Shown piece after piece: positions 4,680 through 56,800 of a stretch of DNA of 64,000 nt (position 1 is the first letter of the stretch; every line of letters starts with the position of its first letter). The stretch is from the NCBI RefSeq assembly GCF_040954835.1, contig NC_090698.1, positions 67,091,284 through 67,155,283 of the forward strand, read 5' to 3'. A program made the position numbers and the translations under genes. Under the pieces are notes generated by a model. It did not search any database. It saw only the letters and a program-made list of their open reading frames with translations, and was not told where the DNA came from. This DNA is from Lepisosteus oculatus. Its lineage: Eukaryota > Chordata > Actinopteri > Semionotiformes > Lepisosteidae.

Positions 4680-5115
4680 TGTCGCCACTTTAAGTCCATA
4701 TATCGGGATATGACATACCCTGACAAAAAAAGTCCACCCCCATGTCGCGACATGGAATCCATATATCGCGACATGACCAAATCTGTCAGGCCTATGTCGC
4801 GACATGGAGCCCGCATATTGCGATATGGCATACCCCGGCAAAAAAAGCCCACCCCCATGTCGCGACATGGAGTCAATATATCGCGACATGACCAGATCTG
4901 TCACGCCTATGTCGCGACATGGAGCCCGCATATCGCGATATGGCATACCCCGGCAAATATGCCCTGCCCCATGTCACGACATGAAAGTCCCTACATCGCG
5001 ATATGACATGCCCAGCCCCATGTCGCGAAATGGTGTCCATATGTTGCGATAGGACATACCCTGACAGGATATCCTGACCCCATGTCGCAACACAAAGTCC
5101 ATATATCTCGACACG
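4680..5115. repeat. TCGCGA-palindrome tandem array (period ~115 bp)
   Basis: Perfect palindromes such as CCATGTCGCGACATGG (about 4740) and ATATCGCGATAT alternate along the array. The long period is about 115 bp (the CATGTCGCGACATGG box recurs at 4741 and 4856), made of two sub-units of about 52 and 63 bp that each carry a TCGCGA palindrome and an ACATACCC(T/C)G spacer. At least seven palindrome boxes are visible, and they degrade toward 5115. Related degraded boxes resume at 5645-5830 after a LINE insertion. Short open frames through the array are by-products of the repeats. CpG is kept at the centre of each palindrome. Confidence 0.85.
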
Positions 5116-10645: not shown

Positions 10646-11940
10646 TAATCCATTGAATTGAACGGGTTGTCCTGCCGCTTTTTATCCCGCGTGTAATCCT
10701 GCATTTTGTAATTGCCTGCCCTCTAATACAGTATAAAAAAGAGTTTACATTAGATAAATTTCTTTAACCGAATTTAAAAACAAAACCCGTTGTTGATACT
10801 GCGGTACGAGCTGAGGTGATTTAAACTCCCGCATTCTTCTCATTTCTTCCATAAACAAGAGAAAATAAGAAGATTACGATTTGTGTTCATTAGTAACAAG
10901 GAATTCCATTCATGAGCGCACGCCTTTTCTTGGTATTTAATCTGAGCTGTAAACGGTGCAGGCGGCGCAATCACAACGGGGACCCGTCTAAACACGGACC
11001 CTGGACCTTAATCCTCGCATGTTTCACCACATTTGCGTGGCGATAAAGTTTTTATTTTTAAAAGTGGAATTCAACGAAGGACAAAATCTAAAATTCTCAG
11101 TTGGGCGTACAGGTGTAAAATGTAATTTACATTTAAAAGTGTGGTGATCTAATTGACGAGACGTACAGTCCATGAACGACCGCAAAGAAGCGTGTGGGCA
11201 TTACTTGCTGTATGTGGTATCTGCGGGATTGAAATACGAGAATCGTGCAATTCAGGTCTCTGTGGGGAAAAGGGACAGGGAGGACAAAAACCTAAATCAG
11301 CAGCGGGTTTTTTGTTTTAATCCGTCGCGGGCCGTCGGCACAATACGCGCGTTCATGCCACTTCACCTGTGCCACGGAAACACGAAGGTGGAGGCTCTCA
11401 GAAGGAAAATTGAAAGGGGGCTGTGTGAAAAAGCAGTCAAAATGACTAAAATAAAGACATTTTGTTTTCTGCGTCGCAAAAGAATAAGAGGGTGACGCGC
11501 GAACCCTGGGTTAATTCGGGCACTTGGTTTGCAAGCGCAGCGCTCCTGTGGAGGAACCGCAGCAACACTGAACAGTTCCGAGGAATTCGCCGCACCAGCG
11601 ATCTCCTGAAGGAGGTCAGGTGATATTTACGCGGCCAACTGAAGACGTGTAGTGGCAATTGTAACAGGTGGACAAGAAGAGGGAGTATTTCATATCAAAA
11701 GGCGATCCGAAGGGGGTTGCGGACGACTTTGGCGGAGTTTAAAGTCAGGAGGACGAACTGCGAACGAGTGAGCCGGCAACTTTAATTTGACTAAAGTGCA
11801 TCACCCGAGTGTGCGATGTCCGGAGAGGGGGTGTGAGAGGGGACGATAAAATAATCAAATATCGGGATCCGGTTTCGCTGCAGGTTCAAGCCAAGGGGAA
11901 CACAGGCGCCTTTGCTTCTTCGGGCAGGTTTCCGAGCAGA
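10646..11940. other. upstream region of SLC10A6
   Basis: No other gene is seen. From about 11300 the sequence becomes GC-rich with CpGs retained. It probably contains the promoter and 5' untranslated sequence of the transporter gene that starts at 11941. I cannot place a TATA box or start site with confidence. The coding frame of exon 1 stays open upstream to an ATG at 11809, which I regard as leader. Confidence 0.4.
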
Positions 11941-14900
11941 ATGCTGAACCACACGGGCTGCTCGGAGTGCGAGGGGAACCGAACGCACAACGGGACGAGC
12001 GCCCCGGACGAAACCGTCACGCTGGTTTTCAGCGTCGTGCTGACTGCCCTGCTCGCCCTGGTGGTCTTTTCCTTGGGGTGTACCGTTGAGTTGGGCAAAC
12101 TGTGGTTCCACCTCCGGCGCCCCTGGGGTATTTTGGTGGGGCTCGTTTGCCAGTTTGGTCTGATGCCCCTCACTGCGTACGCCCTCGCTGTTGGCTTCGC
12201 CGTGAAGCCGGTGCAGGCTGTCGCCATCCTCATCATGGGCTGCTGTCCGGGGGGGACGATCTCCAACATTATCGCGTACTGGGTTGATGGAGACATGGAC
12301 CTCAGGTGAGACATAGCTTTTGAGCTTTTTGTGAATTCTTCATTTGTACAGGTTTATCTAGTTATGCTTAAAAAGGATCAAATAAAAAGGCTCGTCTGTT
12401 TTTATGGAATATTTCTGTATATACGCCTAGGCGTGCAAAGGTGGGGTTATAAACGCTGTACAGTACATTGGTCGCTTGTTCTGATCAAGCGAACAAAAAA
12501 AAATCTAAATTCTGTGATCTATAGCTTTTGCATTTATTATTAGGAAAGATACCCGCCCCCATCCCCCTCCGCTTATATTAATTCCCGCTGGATCAAACTT
12601 TCTTCAATTAAAGGAAAACGCAGCATTTCATAAACCAGTATTTGGCTCTGTGGGAGATCAGGATTGGCAGGATATATTTATCTTTTCGGGTTAAATGTGA
12701 TGGAAAACAGTAGTTCATCCATAGAGTGATTATATTCTCTATTTTGAAAAAGGAAACCTGAACTTTTTAAACTATTTTAGTTGTGCATGCCATATAGTTT
12801 CTGTGTTAAGCAGGTGGTATGTTTGGTGGAGGTGGGGGGACAACTGTGTATATCTGTAATAAATTCTATATCTTAATAAAGTCTTCTTTTTGACAACTGA
12901 AGAATGCTCCACAGCCGAAACGTTGTGTCTCCTTTCTGTTATTTTCACGTGGAAGAAAACTTCACCCGTTCCTTATCTGTAATAAATGTCGTCTTCCCGG
13001 GATTTTAAGATCCCTGTTTACCGAAAAACAGACAGAGAAAACCTTACTCCCAGTCTGTGCTCTTGTTAATGTGTTGCGGTGCTCTTTTACGCACAACACA
13101 ACTAAAACAAAAAGGGCTACAAAGAGAAAACGTGAGTTTAAAGGGTGGCATATTGGCGCGGTGATAAGCACTGCTTCCTCGCAGCGCTGGGGCTCTGGGT
13201 TCTGTTTTGGACGTGGGGTGCTATCTGTGTGGAGTCTGTATGTTTCCTCCGCGTTTTTGTGAGTTTTCTTGGGGTGCTCCGGTTTCGTTCCCCAGTCCGG
13301 AAGCCCGCCCTGTGGCTCGCAGTGTAGGGGCGCTGGTCGGCGGCCAGTGAGAGTGTGGGTTCAAATCCACCTCTTTCAGAGGGCAGACTCATAGGTTAAT
13401 TGCTGGGGCTAGAGTCTGTCGGTATGTGTGTGACCCGTGATGGACTGGCGTCCTGTCCCCCCTCCTTGCTTTTTGGGACAACAGGCGCCGGTTTCCCCGC
13501 GACACCACACTGGAAGAAGCGGTTAGAAAATGAACGGATGGACGTGACCTTAAAAGCTGTAAAGACTGGTCGAAAAGTCCGGACGTCTTTAAAATTCGAG
13601 TAATTAAACAGTTAACTTCAGAAATGGAAGCTTGTGTTTCAACATTCTGGTTCTCTTATACAGTGAGTGGCGGTTTTCGTTTACACGCCGTACCAGCCTG
13701 AAATTCTCGCTCCCTGTCTGTGGGATGTTCGTCGTGCCTGTTTTCTGCGCTCACTCAGGCGAGGGAAGACAATCTCTCCACACATTTTTTCGGCTGCAGT
13801 GGACAGAAGATTACAATGCGGATGCAGCTAATAAAACGGCTACAATCCATCCTTACAACATTGAGCGTGATAATGTAAATACTTCATGGAAACATTCATA
13901 GAAGACCAAGGTGGCGGAAAATGCCGATTCTTTTAATACAGTTTTGATTCAGTATAGGAGGCTACCACATCCCAGAGTGCCGTGTACAAATTTAAATGAT
14001 TTTATGATTTAAATGACATTTTTCTCGTAGTCGGTAATAATTCACCTGAAGAAGGCTCCACGGCCGAAACGTTGCGTTTTATTTCTTCTTTTTTTTCAGC
14101 ATGGAATAAACCTATTACTTGTTCCTCTGCAGCCTACGCATGCTGACGCAGCCACCCACCTGAACTACTGTGTTTTAAGTAATATATATTTACCCGTTTA
14201 TTTCAGCATTACCATGACCTGCTGCTCGACAGTTCTGGCTATGGGAATGATGCCTCTCTGTCTGTTCATCTACACACGCTCCTGGGTTGGCGAAGGCAAC
14301 ATTAAAATCCCCTTCTTTAACATAGGTGACGACCATTCATTTACCTCATGTCTCCAGCCCAGCTCTCTGCCTCGTTGAATGGAAATAGTAGAGGGGTCAG
14401 TATGTCTCTGGGACAGTGGTAGTGTGTGTGTGTGGGGGGGTTAATTTCCTGTAACAACGAAAAATTGGAACAGTAAATTGCGGGAGTTCTTGACGGCTGT
14501 TGGGAATCAATCAAAATAAAAGAATCCACAGTTTTACACACCGATTCTAAATATACTGTATAATTCACAAGGCGTTGGTCGTATGTCATTAGAGTGTTTC
14601 GGAATGGAGACAGCTGTATGACGCCCTGATCTGTGTGTCTTGGAAAATGTCTCTTATAATTAGCTCTCCTAGATTATTACAATCAGTTCTAAGCGTTGTA
14701 GATACATAAGACTTCATTGATCCCGAAGAGAAATTGATGTGTTACAGCAATCTAGCCCAAAACAAGCAAAAAAACAGACATCAGAATAGACAAAAAATTA
14801 AAATACATACGGTAATAAAAAATAAATATAAAATATTAAATAAAAATAAATACATAGGTGTGTGCAAAACATGCTCGTAGTCACTGTAAAAACAGCAAAA

Positions 14901-23144: not shown

Positions 23145-23500
23145 AAGACCTGCACTGCCCACCCATGGGCCAGTGGCTACAGACAATCCCACTGCTTAGC
23201 ACTACACTGACCAAGACCTGGACTGCCCACCACTGGGCCAGTGACTACAGACAAGCCCACTGCACAGCACTACACTGACCAAGACCTGGACTGCCCACCC
23301 ATGGGCCAGTGGCTACAGACAATCCCACTGCTTAGCACTACACTGACCAAGACCTGGACTGCCCACCACTGGGCCAGTGACTACAGACAAGCCCACTGCA
23401 CAGCACTACACTGACCAAGACCTGGACTGCCCACCCATGGGCCAGTGGCTACAGACAAGCCCACTGCACAGCACTACACTGACCAAGACCTGGGCCCGTC
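23145..23500. repeat. 68-bp minisatellite, 5 copies
   Basis: The unit (CCCACCCATGGGCCAGTGGC ... CACTGACCAAGACCTGG) starts near 23161, 23229, 23298, 23366 and 23435. Two variants alternate: A has CCCATGGGCCAGTGGC and B has CCACTGGGCCAGTGAC. The order A-B-A-B-A points to a 137-bp two-unit duplication step. It lies between the 3' ends of SLC10A6 and CCDC125. Confidence 0.85.
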
Positions 23501-26345
23501 TCACTGGCCTTCCTGCCAGCTCATTGAGGTGTGACAACGTTACAACAGCACAACCTTTGTCCTCGTGCTGCCTGTGTAGCAACAGCTTCCTTACAAGGTG
23601 AGAATGTGGCTATTAGCTGTGAAAGCACGTATTGCCAGACTTGAGCCCCGCCTGGATATGGGTGAGATGAGCTGGAATGATGTGTGGCATCTAGAACTCA
23701 GAGAGCAGCAAACAGGCACGCGCTTGTCCAGGATCTAAGAGAAATGAGGCAGAGTCCCTCAACACAGCACCTGCAAACTGGGGACACATATGTGCTTTGT
23801 ACAGCTTGGATCGTATCCAACGGTGGCCACACCCATTATTAGATCTTGACTTTTAAATTTAAAAATGAACGAATTTACCTACAGTATAACATGCCTGTTC
23901 ATTCCAGAGTGTTCCAAAGACGCTGTCAAACTCCCCACTGTCATTGTAAAATGCTGAGAACTATTTAATATTTCTTCCCAGAATTCACAGTGGCTGTGTG
24001 CTCTTAAGATATCGTTGGACTCCCAGCGGTCTGGAGTATCTCTGACAAAGAGAAAACGTGGTTAGACTGACCTCTTCTGGAGATAGGCGGTGATGCAAGA
24101 AAGAGAAAAGTTCGACTACTCTTCAATGCACATAGACCTTTTTTTTTAGGCCAAGCCGTACAGACGCTTGTGGCTGTCTGGAGCCAAGTGCAAATTCCCA
24201 TGCCCGGACTCCTTCGGTTCTGGAAATCACTTGGATAGATACTAGTAGCTCTTAGGATATCATAGAATGCCATCGTGATCTGGCCCTGCCCGTCAGCTTG
24301 GAGTTAAATGCAATTGCTAAAAAATGTCAGGTCCTTCAGTCTGGGGAGGCTTCACTGACCTCAGCCCTTTACCGACACTCATGTGGATGTCGCAAGCAGG
24401 GTCAGCTGTCCTGCAGGATAGCCATGGCAGTGAGTGAACTGGTTTTCATAATTCTCAGAACTGTGCTCATGACATTGATTCACCCCTATAGGCGTTTACA
24501 TTTTTTCCACGCCCAGATCTGAGAATCCGCCAAAGGTGTTGAAAGCAATTCAGCTTTCCCTTCTTTATGTGGGAGTCTTTTGCTTTGTTTAAATACAGTA
24601 ATCATTTCGAAACATATACCATAATGTATACTCCATTGCCTGCAGCTTTGGCACTTTTTTTGAGAGTGCGCTTCTTAAATCTAGAATATTTTTACTGTAG
24701 GTCGCATTAACATTTAACTCTGTTAAAGACTCCTCTGTTCACATTCTGCCTTTTCTTGTTGGGACTGCAGTAATGCAATAAGAACAGAAGAGGGCTGTTT
24801 ATACACAAGATTTCTGAGTTCTTCAATTTGTAATTTCTAAACTCTGTATAATACTGACAATTTGCATTCAAAATGATAGGAAATAAAAAAACCTAACTAA
24901 TTCTGATTTGACTTGTTATTCTCAGAGAAATTGAGAAACCGGTTACTGAGCTCAATAATGTTCTCAATTATACCACAGCTTCTTTAAAGATATCCCTGGA
25001 TTAATGATCTATTAGCAATAAAACTAGATAAGAGGGCTAAATAACCTTCACAGGTTTGTAACTTTTCCTATGCTTTCACAACACCAAGGACCGCAAAGGT
25101 TTTGAAATTTTAAAAGAACGACTAAATAGAAATATTGCATCGCCAGAACAAAAATGCACTCAATTGATATTAAGAGCAACCTTTTAATATAGAAATACTG
25201 AGAAGCTTTTACAAAGAGATGTTCAGAGCATTTCACAAAGATATTCAATAGACCTATCTTCAATTCTAAAAACTCAAGCTACTTTTCTCTTTAAAATTAC
25301 AACAGCTCGGTCAGGTTTTAAAACCCTTTTCCTTAAGAAACCTTCAGACTAATCTGTAGTCCTTATTCCCGTTCTGGAATTCAGTCGGTAGACCAGTTCT
25401 CCTCAGTAGGTGGGTCAGTGTTGCAAGTAACTGGCGAGCTCCTCTGAGCTAGTCCCCTCCTAGCTTGCAGAGTTGCTATACAGCTGTATCGTGCATTAGT
25501 GTTTCCTCCGATTCCCAAAAAGCAAAAAGTAAAAAACTTGACTTAAAGGTGACTTGTCTTGTTTTGAAAGACTCTTATCCTCGTAAGCTATGCCAAGCAT
25601 GGAGCTACTGCTATCCACCCTGTACTGGAATGAAGTAGGTAGATGGGTAATAAACCTCTGTTTAACTCTGAAAGCATGGGACATCAATCCAATGTTATGG
25701 TCTTTTTTGCAAAAACAAAACGGTTTATTCTTAAGTGTTTATTAGTAATGATAGCAGGTTAATGGCATGATTACTGAAACCCCAGACTGACAATTCCAAA
25801 AACTATAATCACCCCAATATTTTAATTCTAGCATTAAAACAATTCCTTTCATTCATTTTTTTGGCATGTATCCTTATAAAAGTGAGTTTACAAAACATTT
25901 CCCTCTTGAGAATTTTTAAAACCAGCCTTTCTGAATTTGAAAGGAATTTAAAAGTTAAAATGGACAACTGCTTCAACATGTAGATTCTGCCAAGTAAGAG
26001 ATATTTGTTTTTTTGCCTGTTACTTTTTTCGTGTCTTCCTAACCAGGATTTATGCTGTGAGTGTTGGTCTTTGTGGCCTGAGCGTCTCTCCATGAATCCT
26101 TTCCAGGTTCTTCAGAGGTGGGGAATACTGTCTCTTTGTCATGTTAGATTAAATTAATGAATTTCGCCAGAGCACATACACATGGGAATCACTCATCTCT
26201 GTCAGGCCAGACCAAGACTATTAAAAACAAGCTTAAAAAGTTAGCATGTTTTTCTGCAGTTTTCTATATTTATGAGTCTTTCAGATGAGAGGTTCTCCTT
26301 CCTTCTGGTTTTCCACTGGTTCTGTCTGTGTCTTAATCTCACTCT
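23501..26345. other. intergenic, tail-to-tail region between SLC10A6 and CCDC125
   Basis: No gene is seen. On the minus strand AATAAA occurs at about 25722-25742 and ATTAAA near 25818; either could end CCDC125. A segment near 23650-23720 weakly resembles 52440-52510 (GTGGCATCTA...CTTGTC(C/T)AGGATC), suggesting an old dispersed repeat. Confidence 0.4.
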
Positions 26346-29300
26346 TCATATCTGTCCCAGTTGAGTTACAGGGGCATCAGTCGGCTCTTTCTCAGATGGC
26401 AGTGCCAAAGCAGTGGAGAAGTTTTTCTGGACGCCAGTTTTCTCTGTCTGTGTTTCTGTCTGGACGCCTATTTTCTCTGTCTGCGTTTCTGACTGAACGC
26501 CTGTTTTCTCTCTCTGCATTTCTGTCTGGATACCTGTTTTCTCTGTCTGTGTTTCTGTCTGTATGCCTGTTTTCTCTCTCTGTGTTTCTGTCTGGACACC
26601 TGTTTTCTCTCGTGATGTTTCTGTCTGGATGCCTGTTTTGTCTCTCGGTGTTTCTGACTGTGTCTGTGTTTCTTTCTGGACGCCTGTCTTCTCTCTTGGT
26701 GTTTCTGTCTGGACACCTGTTTTCTCTCTTGGTGTTTCTGTCTGGACGCCTATTTTTTCTGTCTGCGTTTCTGACTGAACGCCTGTTTTCTCTCTCTGCA
26801 TTTCTGTCTGGACACCTGTTTTCTCTGTCTGTGTTTCTGTCTGGACGCCTGTTTTCTCTCGTGATGTTTCTGTCTGGATGCTTGTTTTGTCTCTCGGTGT
26901 TTCTGACTGTGTCTGTGTTTCTGCCTGGACGCCTGTCTTCTCTCTTGGTGTTTCTGTCTGGATGCCTGTTTTCTCTGTCTGTGTTTCTGTCTGGACGCCT
27001 ATTTTTTCTGTCTCCGTTTCTGACTGAACGCCTGTTTTCTCTCTCTGCATTTCTGTCTGGACACCTGTTTTCTCTGTCTGTGTTTCTGCCTGGACTCCTG
27101 TTTTCTCTGTCTGTGTATCTGTCTGGAGGCCTGTTTTCTCTCTCTGTGTTTCTGTCTGGACGCCTGTTTTCTCTGTCTGTGTATCTGTCTGGAGGCCTGT
27201 TTTCTCTCTCTGTGTTTCTGTCTGGAGGCCTGTTTTCTCTCTCTGTGTTTCTGTCTGGACGCCTGTTTTCTCTCTCTGTGTTTCTGTCTGGACACCGGTT
27301 TTCTCTCTCTGTGTTTCTGTCTGGACGCCGGTTTTCTCTTTCAGTGTTTCCTTGCTAACAGAGGAGTGCTGTCGTGCCCGACAGCTCTTGCATGTGGCAG
27401 CTGGGCGCAGGGTCCCAGGGTCCGAGCTGCGGCGGTCAGCTCTGCCCTCTCGCCTGCAGCTGCTACTTCCTGCAGGACATGCGTCTGTCACTTGCCGGAG
27501 GCGGCGTTCCAGCTCTTCAGAGTTGCGAGCCAACATATAGCTGACCTTTCTCTGGTGGGCCAAGGCTTCCTCTTTGTCGTTGAGCTGCAGTGAGTAAAAC
27601 ACAATATTAAACCACTCAAGGAAAAGTCCCCTCTGGGTTTACATTTTCAGTTTGGAAACTCAACAGGCATTCACAGGACAGACTGAGACATACAGAGGGG
27701 GAACAACACTACAGAAAACACCTGTCAGTTAGAAATTAGCTGCTTATATGTACTGAGGCATTATCAACACAGACAGTGTTGCACATGGACAAGTGACAGG
27801 ACTGCAAGATCTTCCTGTTTGACTGTCCTTTCCCATCAAATTCTGTACCTTTTGCTCATCTGTTAATAATCTGTTAAGTTTTGACCCAGTACATTTTATT
27901 ACAGTTACTAACTGCACACCTGGGTGTAACAGGCATTAAAAGCAACATAATTACAAACATCCTCAAATGACATAATAGGTCTGCTGAGTCTAAATCGGTC
28001 ATCAATACTACCAACACCTTAATCGCAAAAAGATTCAATGCTGCAAAGCACCCTGGATCTTTTTTGCGGGACCACAAGGAAAGATCCTACAAGAAACAGA
28101 AGCATATACTGAGGACACAGCTGCATGTGGGCAAGGACTGAGACACAGACCAGATCGACGAGCATCTGTAGCGTCTCCGCCGGGTCGTCCTGGATCTCCA
28201 GCTTCCTGCCCTCAGCCGTGGACAGCAGCAGCCCCTTCAGCCTCTGGGCCACGCTGAGAGAGCCGCTCTTCACCAGACTCCCCCCTGGGGACGCAGGAAC
28301 AGACACTCACGATTCCAGAGTTATTTACACAGGGGAGGGGACCCACTTCATTCGCCACTGAAGCGCAGACACATGGTGACCATGAAGCAAGTTGTGTGGA
28401 GAAGCGAGGGACAGCCAATCACCAGCCGATTTGTGGGGGGAACGGTAGGTAGATAAAATTGTTCAAGCCCATGTGGGCACTGGATTAACACCCTGACACT
28501 TATGACCAGTCCCATGGGATATGTAATAACATGGCAGTCTGCAACTTGGTTTAACATCTCTTTGAAATGATGGCACCTCCTAAATCGGTGTCCCCAGTCA
28601 CCATGCTGGGGAAAGGATTGGATACTGTAAGAGCGCCAGCTACTGATCCACAAGCATCACGTAGATCTGGCAAGATTAAGCTAGGCTAACACATGGCTGT
28701 CAAGGTGGTTTGTGCTCCAGCTGAAAATTAGCTCTTCTATTCTAATTATTCAAGAGCCATAGCTCTTTTCCTAAAATTAGGTAAAATAAATAAACATACA
28801 AAGCAATTCATTTCATTTTCTTAATTTTGCTCTGGAGCTGGAGGGCTGAAAATTAAATTGCCAGCCTACATCTTTTCAAGAACTGCGTTGTAACGTGAAA
28901 TGCTTACAGGGCAGTCATAAAAAAAAACAGAACAGTTGAAAATGTTTTAACAAACATAAATCCAATCTTTTGACTAGTTCAGCAGTTCTTTTGGAAGTGG
29001 CTATTGAGATGTCATGAGGAAAAAATGGTAACACATTTGGAGCCGCTGAGTTGTAGAGGATCTGAGACACATTCAGATCAATGGAACTGTCTGGTTTACC
29101 TTGGCTAATTAAGATCTTGGTAAATCATTAAGAGTCGTCGACAGTCCAGGAGAACAAGATAAAAAGACAGAAAGGTAGAGAGGAGGGAAAGAGAAGAGGC
29201 CGGAGACACAGAGGAGAGGACGGACCGCTAGACTAAAGTGCCAGGGGAGAGGTCTGGGTACAGATTAACTGCAAAGACCAGAACGGAGCTCAGTATTTGA

Positions 29301-32300
29301 ACCTTTTTTAGAGAGCTTGCTGTACCGTTGTTTTTAAAAAACCGATTTCCTGCATAGAGAATCCCTCGGTTAAAAACGGCCTCTCCTGTAAGTGTGTGCA
29401 TTTTTTTTAATAATATAGGTTCCCTTTCACTTTTGTAGCATCCAGGTTTATAGAGAGATTTTCTAAGTTTATTGTGTTTGGTTTAGAAGGAAGGTATATC
29501 TCTCCTATTGGCCTGTGTAAGTATTATATAGGATTTTTAAATATTTGGTAGCAGGCTGTGTTTTTCTTTCTGCCGGTGAGGATAAAGACCTCTAAGATGC
29601 CTCGTTTGAAAACAGAGAATCTGAATCTTGATCCACAGGCATCTCCACAGCCACCCTGCTCTCCCCCGAGGACCCCATGCGGACTATAAAAGCCTAAAGC
29701 TTACAACAGCAGTCCATGAGGTGCGCAGCGCAGATCCCAGCCGGCGGTCCGGGGGTCTGTCGCACTATACCTGCACTCTCCTTCCGAGTAAACAGTAACA
29801 CCTTGTTTGGAATTAACCGTACCTTCCTCCTTCCTGGCTCTGGGGACGTCTTTGCGCAGGTGTCCCTCGGTCTCTGTCAGACGAAAGGTCTGGTCGCTTC
29901 TCCTCTTCAGCTGCTGCTCAAAGGCGATGCGGAAGGCATCTGCCGTCACATACGCCTCCTCTTTTCTCTTCTTTTGGACATCCAGCTACAGCAAAACATT
30001 GCCCGCGGAGCAGAGGCCAACAGGAAAACTTTTTATCGCTCTTTATCCCAGACACTTACTGCACAAAAATACCTTGCTGACTTGAATGTGCTGGATCTTG
30101 AAAAGGACTATTGACACTTTTATGAGAAATTAAAACTTGAATTAATTAAGAGCCTGTTTTCCACCTGAAGTGTCAAAGTGAGATGTACAATTCTCTGGAA
30201 TCCTGCCTGATTAAGTTTGCCGACGTGCAGTTTCCCTCTTCACGGTTGTGGGACAAATGTGAATCGGACCCGGCGGGGTCATGTAATACTTTCTTCTTAC
30301 CGTTGTTAAAAAACCCCAAAGGATTTTACTCGTGGTAGAGGCCAGAAAATGGCCAAAAAAGTCTTTAAAGTGAAAGTCTGAAATCTTAAATGATGTAAAC
30401 ATGCGCTGAACAAGGTGAAAAACACAGATACTGTATGTAGAAACTAGTGTAGAATGGAGGCACGATGAAGACGCCATGCTAGATGAGGATAATAATGCAA
30501 GCTGACGTAATCAGGGGGCCTCTTGTGGGAAGAAGATGCCGGCTGGGTGTTCAACGCAGTGGGTGTGTAGAAATCTCTGGTAAACGGTACCTCTTGCCTG
30601 AGCTGCAGGACCTGCTTCCGGCTGGCAGCTGCGGACTGGGCGCAGGGGCAGGGCTCCTCCTCGCTGGTGCTGCAGTTACAGGCGCCCAGCACGGCCAGCT
30701 GGGAAAGACACGGCACTGCGCTTCAGGGATCAGGAAACACACCCCACTTAGGACAGGACCCAGCTCCTACACACTTCAGGGATCAGGACACAGACCCCAC
30801 ACAGGACAGGACACAGCTCCTACATGCTTCAGGGATCAGGACACAAACCCCACACAGGACAGGACACAGCTCCTACACGCTTCAGGGATCAGGACACAAA
30901 CCCCATAGAGGACAGGACACAGCTCCTACACGCTTCAGGGATCAGGACACACACCCCACACAGGACAGGACACAGCTCCTACACACTTCAGGGATCAGGA
31001 CACACACCCCACACAGGACAGGACACAGCTCCTACACGCTTCAGGGATCAGGACACAAACCCCACACAGGACAGGACACAGCTCCTACACGCTTCAGGGA
31101 TCAGGACACAAACCCCACACAGGACAAGACACAGCTCCTACACCCTTCAGGGATCAGGACACAAACCCCACACAGGACAGGACACAGCTCCTACACGCTT
31201 CAGGGATCAGGACACAAACCCCACACAGGACAGGACACAGCTCCTACACACTTCAGGGATCAGGACACAAACCCCATAGAGGACAGGACACAGCTCCTAC
31301 ACGCTTCAATAAATACTAATACTCCTAACACATATCACACATAACACTTATTAGGAGGCCATGCTTGTTAAAGGCTAGGGGGAAATTTGTCCAGGATTTA
31401 GGGTAGGGTTACATCCCTACTATTTTTGAGAAATTCCAAGAGTTTTGTAATGACCCCAGAGATGGTTTTACATCTCATCCCTAAGGACAACACCATTTAT
31501 TTTTAAAGTATAGTGTCCCCTTCGCTATACTGGGGTATCAGGACCCACAAAACCCCCAGGGTGAGCGCCCCCTACTGGCCCCACTGACACCTCTTCCAGC
31601 AATGGCCTTAGTTTTTTCCAGGAGGTCTCCCATCCAGGTCCTGACCAGGCTCACAGCTGCTGAGCTTCAGTGGGCTGCCAGTTGTCACGAACCTCACCTA
31701 GCCCCTTCCTGATTTTAGCACTCCTAAAAGCATTTATTTATAAGTTCCACATGTCCTAGTATTGGTCTTAAAGCAGTCCTCTGAATTGACTTTTGTTAAC
31801 ACCTTTCAGGATTTCGAACACTTCTGTAATACTTCTGTGGATATTTTTCAGAGGAAAGCTGTGGGTACTTTTAAGAAATGGCTGGATTAAATTTGAGTTT
31901 CAATTAGCTACTAAACAATCAAGCAAAGAAGAGCTTTTCAACCGTTCATATATTACAAAACATCTTTACCCCTTTTCTTGGCCTTAAAGGAATTTATTAA
32001 CAGTACACTTGGGTATAGCAACAATACCGCATGAGCTGTATGTTTTACTCATTGTTCTGGATAATGTGCTCCACACATGCTGCTCTGAAAACAGCAACGC
32101 AAACATTAAGAAACTCAGTATTACGAAAGCTATTCAAATATTAAGAAACTCCGACCAGCTCAATTATGTCAATCGTTCATTGTACAATAAATCATATTCG
32201 TAGCTTTGCATTCCCATAGCAGTTTGAGTTGCCCTGGAGTAGATAAACAATCTGGTCTCTGTTGCCCATTTGCATGGTTAGAAAGCAATGATAGCCAGTC

Positions 32301-53800: not shown

Positions 53801-56800
53801 CAATGTTGTGGGGACTATAAAACTAGCTAAACAGTTCCTGTCTAGGCTTGTGTTTGAATCATATTAAGCATTTTCATCTTACCTCAAGATATCATGTAGT
53901 AGAGACGGCTGCCTATAAAACTGATTAGGCAGGTCCTGTTTAGGAGAGAGAAAAGGTCTTGCTGAAAGGAACATCTTTTTCTTCTATAACCCCTAGGTTT
54001 TAGTTGGTTTTACACTCACGTTTCAATACTTTGGAGGAAAACTCACTCAGGAGAGTGAGGATACCAACTGCCTTGTTAGTATGCTTATTTTGCACAAAGC
54101 AAACCACAGCTGGGCACAAGTTCATGCATTTTAATATACAGGGAGTTCTCAATTTACAAAGTATATGAAATGTACTGTATGCATTCCTGAAACATGTCAA
54201 GTGAAATCAATAAGTTAAAAAAGAATTCCCCACAAGAGCTTAGATACACAGGGGTGAAGCATTCTGGGTACTCTCCCAAGCAGAGGACTGAAGTCCCAGA
54301 TGAAAAGAACCACATACATTTATGTAACATGCATATAGTGGCAGCACAGTGGTGCATCGCTGCGTCACAGCGCTGGGGCCCTGGATTGAATTCACGAGCT
54401 GGGGTGCTATCTGTGTGGAGCTTGCATGTTCTGCCCATGTTCTCATGGGTTGCCTCCCACAATCCAAAGACATACTGGTAGGATAATTGGCTTCTAGGAA
54501 ACTTCGTCCTGGTGTGAGTGTATTTGGGGCTGTGTGCTCTCCTATGGACTAGTGTCTCATTCAGGGGGTACCCTGCCTGGCGTCCGCTGCTTGCCAGGAT
54601 CGTCTCCAGCTCCCCCAGGACCCTGATGTTTATACAGTTGCACAATTTTTTCGTTTTAAACTAAATGTTTGGTAATGCTTATCAATGTCATGTAAAATCT
54701 GAAGGGCAGATCATTATTGGGATTATTAGTGGTAGGTGGTGAACAGTGTGGAAAGTGCAAGAGTTCTGTTTCTAGGAATGCAACTTGATTTCACAAACAT
54801 CTTCAGTTTCTCATCTGAACACAATCCTCTTACCACCTCACTAGTAAAAAGTGGTCACAGACCACCGAAAAATAGAGTTAAGGGTCACCATTATAAACCT
54901 GCAGCATGCAAGGTACCCCTTCTTTGGGGATTATATTTTTTTTTACTTACCTCTACAAGGATAACTTTCTTTCCTGCATCTGTATCGTCTCCAACCATCT
55001 GCAGGCAGCTGTATTTGTTCGCCCTCAAGAGGAACTCCTGGAACACCGCAGACTGAGAGCTGCCGTAGAAACTATTGAAACTGGACTCTGTGAACACGAA
55101 CAAAAACAGTATAATAGAAAAACAAATACTTGCATTACAAAATATAACTGACACAATTACATGCAGACTTGCAGCTGTTCTGGAGGATGCCTGAATGTGT
55201 ATTTCTGTGTTCTCTTCTAAAGATGGCATACCACAAGCAATCTGGTAACTAGAATTCTGCAGATTGCACAGTTGGGCTGGTCCTGAAAAAGCACACCCTG
55301 AGTCTCATGTGGGCATCATGTTTGCCTTTCATTGATGTATTAATACTAGATTTCACATTACATAAAGCTGAAATAACTCATCCCTCTATCAAATTATAAA
55401 ACAGCATTAGTTGTGTTGGTTGCTTGGACGTAATGTAAGTAAAGAAAAAAAAGATGCTGGAACCAAACTGATTATTTGCACAAAAATATTAAATTGAGTG
55501 TTTGACCTTACGGCAAGCTATTTTTTTATCGTTTCTCCCTCCTTTAATATAAAACAAATAAAATAAATAGCATATTGTGTTTTCCAGCAGTTTTTAAGTA
55601 CTTTAAAGCTTCTCTGGTCACACTCACTAGGGTCAAAAGCCTGTTTGAAGTCCTCTGTTCCATAGTGAGAGCTGGTAGTGGGGTTGATCCACTCCTGAAC
55701 TTGAATGCCCTGCTCCTTTGCCAACACCTGGATGGTGGCCGTCTTCCCACAGCCTGAAGGCCCAGTCATCAGCAGTATAGAGCCACCCTGTACAGACAGA
55801 AAACAGAAATCCATAGAGTAAAAACATCTATCAACAAGAGACAGCATGATGAGTAACGTTTTTCAGAAGGAAAGAATTTCAAAACTGTTCAGGCTGGAGT
55901 CTGTTCAACTCTATTCCCTCCATGGTCCTGTATTATTATTAATGTATAGCACCTTTCATAAAACATCATTTCAATGACCTTCAAAAAATGCATGGGAACT
56001 TACAGATGAGTATTATACGCTAAAGCATGAAAATGAGTTTTAAGACAGGAATTTAAAGAGCTAAATGACTTTCAAGATCTGATACGGGCTAAAAGACCAT
56101 TCCACAGACTTGGAGTAACAGTACACAACACACAGTGTCCCAGATTTCAGAGCCTCACTATAGAAACTAGAGCATGAAACTCTTGGAACACAAAGCTTAT
56201 AAGCTCAACCCTTACTTCAGCTTCATTTTTTATATCCTGCAAATTACGTAATCTACATGTGCTCTGTAGTGCAGGTAAAATATTAGAAAGCAATGTAACA
56301 GATACTTTGCTATACCTCCTTTAAATGCTTGTGGCCAACATGTGATTTTAACCAGTTTTCAACTTCTTCAGTCTTCTTCTTGTGAACGGCAAGTTCACCC
56401 TAGAATGATAACAAAACAAGGCAAAATATCTAAACTGGCTTAGTGTGTTTTTACGCTCTCTGAAATTCCTAAAACAAGGAAAAGGTATCTGACACAGTAC
56501 TGGTAGGGTGACAAATGATTTCTCTGACAGGCAAAAACTAAGAAGAGAATACATTATACACAGACCAGAAAACTAAGAACACAATACAGCAGGAACAGCT
56601 GAGCATAACAATGAAAGGGAGCTGTGCTTCAAAAGAAATAAAAAGAACAGCTCCTTTAAGGCAGCAGACATTGAATTTCTACAAGAGGCTTTAAGACCAC
56701 AATCAGACTGGGAAAAGGTGGCAGGCTGACATCACCGTGTACTTTCCAGAGCACTGCTGACGGTCCAGGTGTGTCCAGTACCTGAGTCCGGGGCGAGTGC

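Follow-up and report, generated by a model that had tools for sequence, protein, structure and literature searches.

Coding minisatellites are a well-known kind of repeat, and alleles of the exonic minisatellite of MUC2 have reportedly been studied. The share of human proteins with tandem-repeat length polymorphism has been put at an estimated ~6%, together with an excess of repeat units that are multiples of three (PMC1273636). The array described here, found next to the last recognised exon of CCDC125 in a 64,000-nucleotide stretch of Lepisosteus oculatus DNA (the window, to which positions refer unless another locus is named), resembles coding VNTRs such as MUC2 in that variant units, each a multiple of three in length, stand in tandem inside a (here probable) exon, whereas it differs in its host, CCDC125, and in having its own 11-residue unit. 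Within the same genome, an array which we take to be AHNAK-like (L030, 9330-10000) is likewise in frame with a silent excess in its open frame, but has a 93-bp unit and a stronger signal (P = 0.002). We interpret the CCDC125 array as a coding minisatellite that would be translated as the tail of the protein, with a probability of roughly 0.7; it would be a new example of a familiar kind of repeat expansion and leaves general knowledge of such expansion unchanged. Among the literature matches listed for CCDC125, coding minisatellites, VNTRs, protein tandem repeats and gar (titles and abstract starts), no title concerned the CCDC125 array, and the only match joining CCDC125 with gar is, by its title, about diet-induced heart disease.

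The host gene was examined via 15 words and patterns characteristic of CCDC125, which were looked up in the window. Eight of them occur on the minus strand in the order to be expected (39854, 33972, 30698, 29961, 29937, 28246, 28171, and 27578), while five words of the human C-terminal tail and two others were absent from the window or present in stray places only. Moreover, these ordered exons lie on one strand beside RAD17, the P-loop exon of which was detected at 55521-55862 (Pfam E = 2.9e-16), presumably the expected neighbourhood of CCDC125. The ordered words support the gene identity proposed in the first-pass annotation. The last recognised exon begins with a conserved block of 31 residues belonging to a coiled-coil helix (27584-27492, minus strand, assigned from the CCDC125 words and the frame), directly downstream of the acceptor-like tttactcactgcag (...actcactgcag), and the coiled coil extends 11 residues beyond the SYMLAR motif, up to ERRLRQ. 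Pfam comparison of six open reading frames from the CCDC125 region gave no match for five and a weak match of the last exon to CC149, below the cut-off (profile positions 285-315, E = 0.0029, 17.4 bits against a cut-off of 30), which in the whole-genome search amounted to 19.5 bits (E = 0.4). A CCDC149-like gene of the same genome (C1:62405529-62417470; L020 ~3760) has a coiled-coil end that aligns by eye without gaps with the CCDC125 exon over 21 residues; in contrast to the latter, it carries an intron of its own within the aligned stretch, and its exon ends with SGLWSLPG followed by a donor.

The conserved exon and the array share one minus-strand frame (26346-27638) of 430 aa from stop to stop. 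Between the end of the coiled coil and the array lie 53 non-repeat codons rich in Cys and Arg (27491-27333, minus strand, GC 0.61); hence, the earlier description of the SYMLAR exon running into the repeats holds as regards the common open frame, but not as regards direct adjacency. The minisatellite itself (27332-26424, minus strand) consists of 24 units of 33 bp, two longer ones of 51 bp and an incomplete one of 15 bp, altogether 27 units when cut by the reading frame, with 909 bp and 303 codons free of stops, and its consensus unit encodes 11 residues per 33 bp. This agrees with the ~27 in-frame copies previously claimed. TRF called the array at 26426-27350 with period 33, 27.9 copies and 80% matches, a unit within the 10-100 bp range of coding minisatellites. 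Two higher-order blocks of 249 bp (27068-26820 and 26819-26571, minus strand), each made up of six units of 33 bp plus a single 51-bp unit, have 238 of 249 bases in common (95.6%), which supports the seven-unit blocks noted in the first-pass annotation, and a partial third block (26537-26439) matches the two copies at 96 and 94 of 99 bases. Downstream of the array, 25 codons open in the gene frame (26349-26423, minus strand) lead to a TGA stop (26346-26348, minus strand). The first AATAAA 3' of this stop (25738-25743, minus strand) is a candidate poly(A) signal, and is preceded by an ATTAAA at 25826. Additionally, a second minus-strand frame overlapping the TGA (26349-26281) was read by hand as 22 residues followed by a stop; judging from its array-like composition, this peptide may be a degenerate remnant of the array.

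The first-pass annotation took the absence of frame-breaking units as an argument for translation and selection, or else for very recent expansion. The array is indeed open throughout, but the argument is weak, as none of the six frames of the consensus unit contains a stop. A plus-strand frame through the array region is likewise open (360 aa). The 51-bp unit, the sole indel type, occurs once per copy of the 249-bp block; its two occurrences, having been copied along with that block, count as approximately one event, with a chance of ~1/3 of preserving the frame. When columns were permuted with linkage kept, stops were expected in 4.7 units in the gene frame and found in none (P = 0.064), and the chance of an open gene frame was 0.19 for the pre-array stretch under a Markov model and 0.23 for the post-array stretch. 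Among the 14 arrays of at least 200 bp (period at least 10) found in 264 kb, four of them within the window, a fully open frame is present in three: the CCDC125 tail array, the AHNAK-like array and a 53-bp array in a CCDC125 intron (30719-31308), in the last case even though the unit is not a multiple of three. Furthermore, of the 103 protein matches elsewhere in the genome, which overlap and were selected by protein similarity, 66 contained no stop by hand count. Openness was set aside as weak evidence of coding on account of the stop-free unit and the other open arrays; both the abundance of minisatellites and the frequent openness of array-like composition would also suit an array that lies in an intron and is not translated.

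A different kind of evidence is provided by the differences between units, to which the first-pass annotation had pointed as informative. The 24 units of 33 bp, leaving aside the two 51-bp units and the partial one, contain 22 distinct base variants. In a first test, in which variants were moved among columns sharing the same consensus base, 10 of the 22 were silent in the gene frame as compared to 5.9 expected (P = 0.0195 and 0.020), whereas the other five frames gave P values from 0.126 to 0.964; here, each variant was counted as an independent event, even though columns 22-24 vary jointly. The second test, permuting whole columns and thereby keeping the linkage between variants, gave, for the gene frame, 678 amino-acid differences where 892 would be expected (P = 0.0135) and 12 amino-acid variants where 16.5 would be expected (P = 0.015), with P values of at least 0.1065 and at least 0.223, respectively, in the other frames. 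The comparison of codon changes between units thus revealed a silent excess in the gene frame alone (P = 0.020 and 0.0135), and by hand estimate the 12 changing and 10 silent variants, set against the expected shares, correspond to a rate ratio of ~0.4. The bias is modest and indirect, and two other measures were null: the number of distinct peptides among the units was not reduced (P = 0.38), and single-step stop variants were not avoided (1 seen, P = 0.42), this lone variant being no real stop since the change affects the first base of TCA. Likewise, the numbers of distinct variants at codon positions 1, 2, and 3 (8, 4, and 10) were not significantly biased in a chi-square calculated by hand. 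Other arrays served for comparison: the AHNAK-like one, with 23 variants among 7 units of 93 bp, showed P = 0.002 in the frame that is open and P = 0.009 in one of the antisense frames, and for three presumed non-coding arrays with 12, 21, and 18 variants the lowest P value in 18 frame tests was 0.316. The limitation of the silent excess to the gene frame makes a better, if modest, case for translation than the open frame does.

Since no in-frame stop precedes the array, it would be translated if the transcript neither is spliced nor ends before it. An exon ending after ERRLRQ at the donor 27491, with an unrecognised terminal exon at ~26.3-23.1 kb, would instead make the array an untranslated intronic minisatellite, which we consider rather unlikely. 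Two donors with a score above 2 are located between exon start and array, one within the conserved helix at 27545 (6.93) and one at the helix end at 27491 (3.58; CAA/GTGACA); the latter, which stands where the homology ends, is not dismissible on its strength, as a probable used donor of CCDC125 scores just 3.41. Five donor-like sites inside the array scored 3.84-4.15, and an acceptor-like site at 27469 scored 6.67. The codon scores, based on a human codon table, were -0.07 for the pre-array stretch, -0.43 for the array and 0.17 for the post-array stretch in the gene frame, which ranked first of six frames in all three with leads over the next of 0.03, 0.08, and 0.06, respectively; in the recognised exon stretches the best frame scored between 0.11 and 0.32 in five out of six, the N-terminal sixth being at -0.40. 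Eight phase-0 candidates for a terminal exon 3' of the array scored -0.02 to -0.28, in the range of the pre-array stretch and above the array, and because these candidates do as well as the pre-array stretch, the two gene models are not distinguished by codon scores. The silent excess confined to the gene frame and the positive score of the post-array stretch speak against an untranslated array; moreover, none of the eight downstream candidates scored above zero or showed a recognisable tail, and the region between 23 and 26 kb contained none of the five words representing the human tail.

If the array is indeed coding, it may have grown from a 33-bp stretch in the probable terminal exon of CCDC125 through slippage or unequal exchange, both of single units and of whole 249-bp blocks, and the exon would have stayed open owing to a stop-free unit with a length divisible by three. 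Whether the resulting tail is constrained is a separate matter. Compatible with translation is a tail added without any constraint, the silent excess being due to chance, which we regard as a real possibility that falls short of an even chance. The 95.6% likeness of the 249-bp blocks suits recent exchange, and P values of only 0.01-0.02 on 22 variants together with the two null measures would be in line with neutrality, whereas the location of the bias in precisely the gene frame argues against it; the array is not all new either, as its units match the consensus at ~80% and contain 22 distinct variants. A more far-reaching proposal appears improbable at present: in this lineage, CCDC125 would have exchanged its ancestral C-terminus for a disordered tail of ~380 residues that varies in length and is under purifying selection, with copy number tuning the reach or partner binding of the protein between individuals. 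Most likely, the tail would be flexible and under weak constraint, serving as a spacer or for interactions. If translated, the array would clearly exemplify how a minisatellite can give a conserved coiled-coil protein a long extension at its C-terminus, and, given the intronic 53-bp array, array evolution inside and outside coding sequence could be compared in one gene.

Behind its last coiled-coil helix, the putative product would carry 381 further residues (53 + 303 + 25) as a probably disordered tail rich in Thr, Gln, Glu and Lys. The 303 array residues comprise 27% Thr, 17% Glu, 16% Gln, and 9% Lys and have a net charge of -11. A single-sequence AlphaFold2 model contained one helix, at residues 2-35 and ending near ERRLRQ, with pLDDT values by block of 86-94 for residues 1-30, a mean of 37 overall and ~30 over the array, where neither helix nor strand was predicted in this low-confidence model. 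According to this prediction, which carries little weight as it comes from a single sequence, the tail after the last helix is probably disordered, and the rod suggested in the first-pass annotation finds no counterpart in it. The period of a hendecad is 11 residues, equal to that of the unit, and a structured repeat, i.e., a hendecad coiled coil or rod, could additionally be read from matches of the array to the Pfam family Microvir_H (PF04687; E = 2.9e-9, 37.2 bits vs. a cut-off of 22.7) and to PDB entries 4jpn_A (E = 0.00015) and 4jpp_A (E = 0.0018), whose protein, microvirus H, is presumably a helical barrel. Nevertheless, a structured tail is very improbable: the consensus unit has a single hydrophobic residue and one Gly, the phage match sits on T/Q/E-rich repeat sequence, and the predicted helix over the 11-residue units that a hendecad would entail was absent from the model. 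Kinship with microvirus H was rejected, the match being taken as compositional, with its best stretch (99-155) within the repeat and no helix predicted there.

Searching the genome with the array DNA yielded 42 matches among the best candidates scored, comprising the array itself and others at 65-78% identity, and three of the seven excised non-self loci, which were inspected (L002, L003, and L005), proved to be arrays of CAGA, GTCT, and GACACA type. The corresponding protein search gave 104 matches from the best 130 of 4716 candidates scored, the non-self ones at 15-40% identity. No second copy of the array was found among these best-scoring DNA and protein matches, and a full-length DNA match to the locus was obtained once, in one assembly.

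Further tandem repeats were observed in the surroundings. The 53-bp × 11 minisatellite in the CCDC125 intron (30719-31308) ends ~20 bases upstream of the exon at 30698 (LAVLGAC) and for that reason probably covers the branch-point region; thus, it could affect splicing of CCDC125. A 68/136-bp minisatellite at 23145-23493 is seemingly placed between the 3' ends of minus-strand CCDC125 and of a plus-strand gene, perhaps an SLC10-like gene, and a match to the sodium/bile acid symporter family was detected on the plus strand at 11791-12306 (Pfam SBF, E = 1.8e-23). Moreover, the unit of a 115-bp tandem repeat at 4700-5007 contains short palindromes, e.g., CATGTCGCGACATG. Elsewhere in the genome, a 206-bp tandem satellite with 98% matches, possibly centromeric, fills all 10 kb of the locus L033 (1-10000; C3:35000001-35010000).
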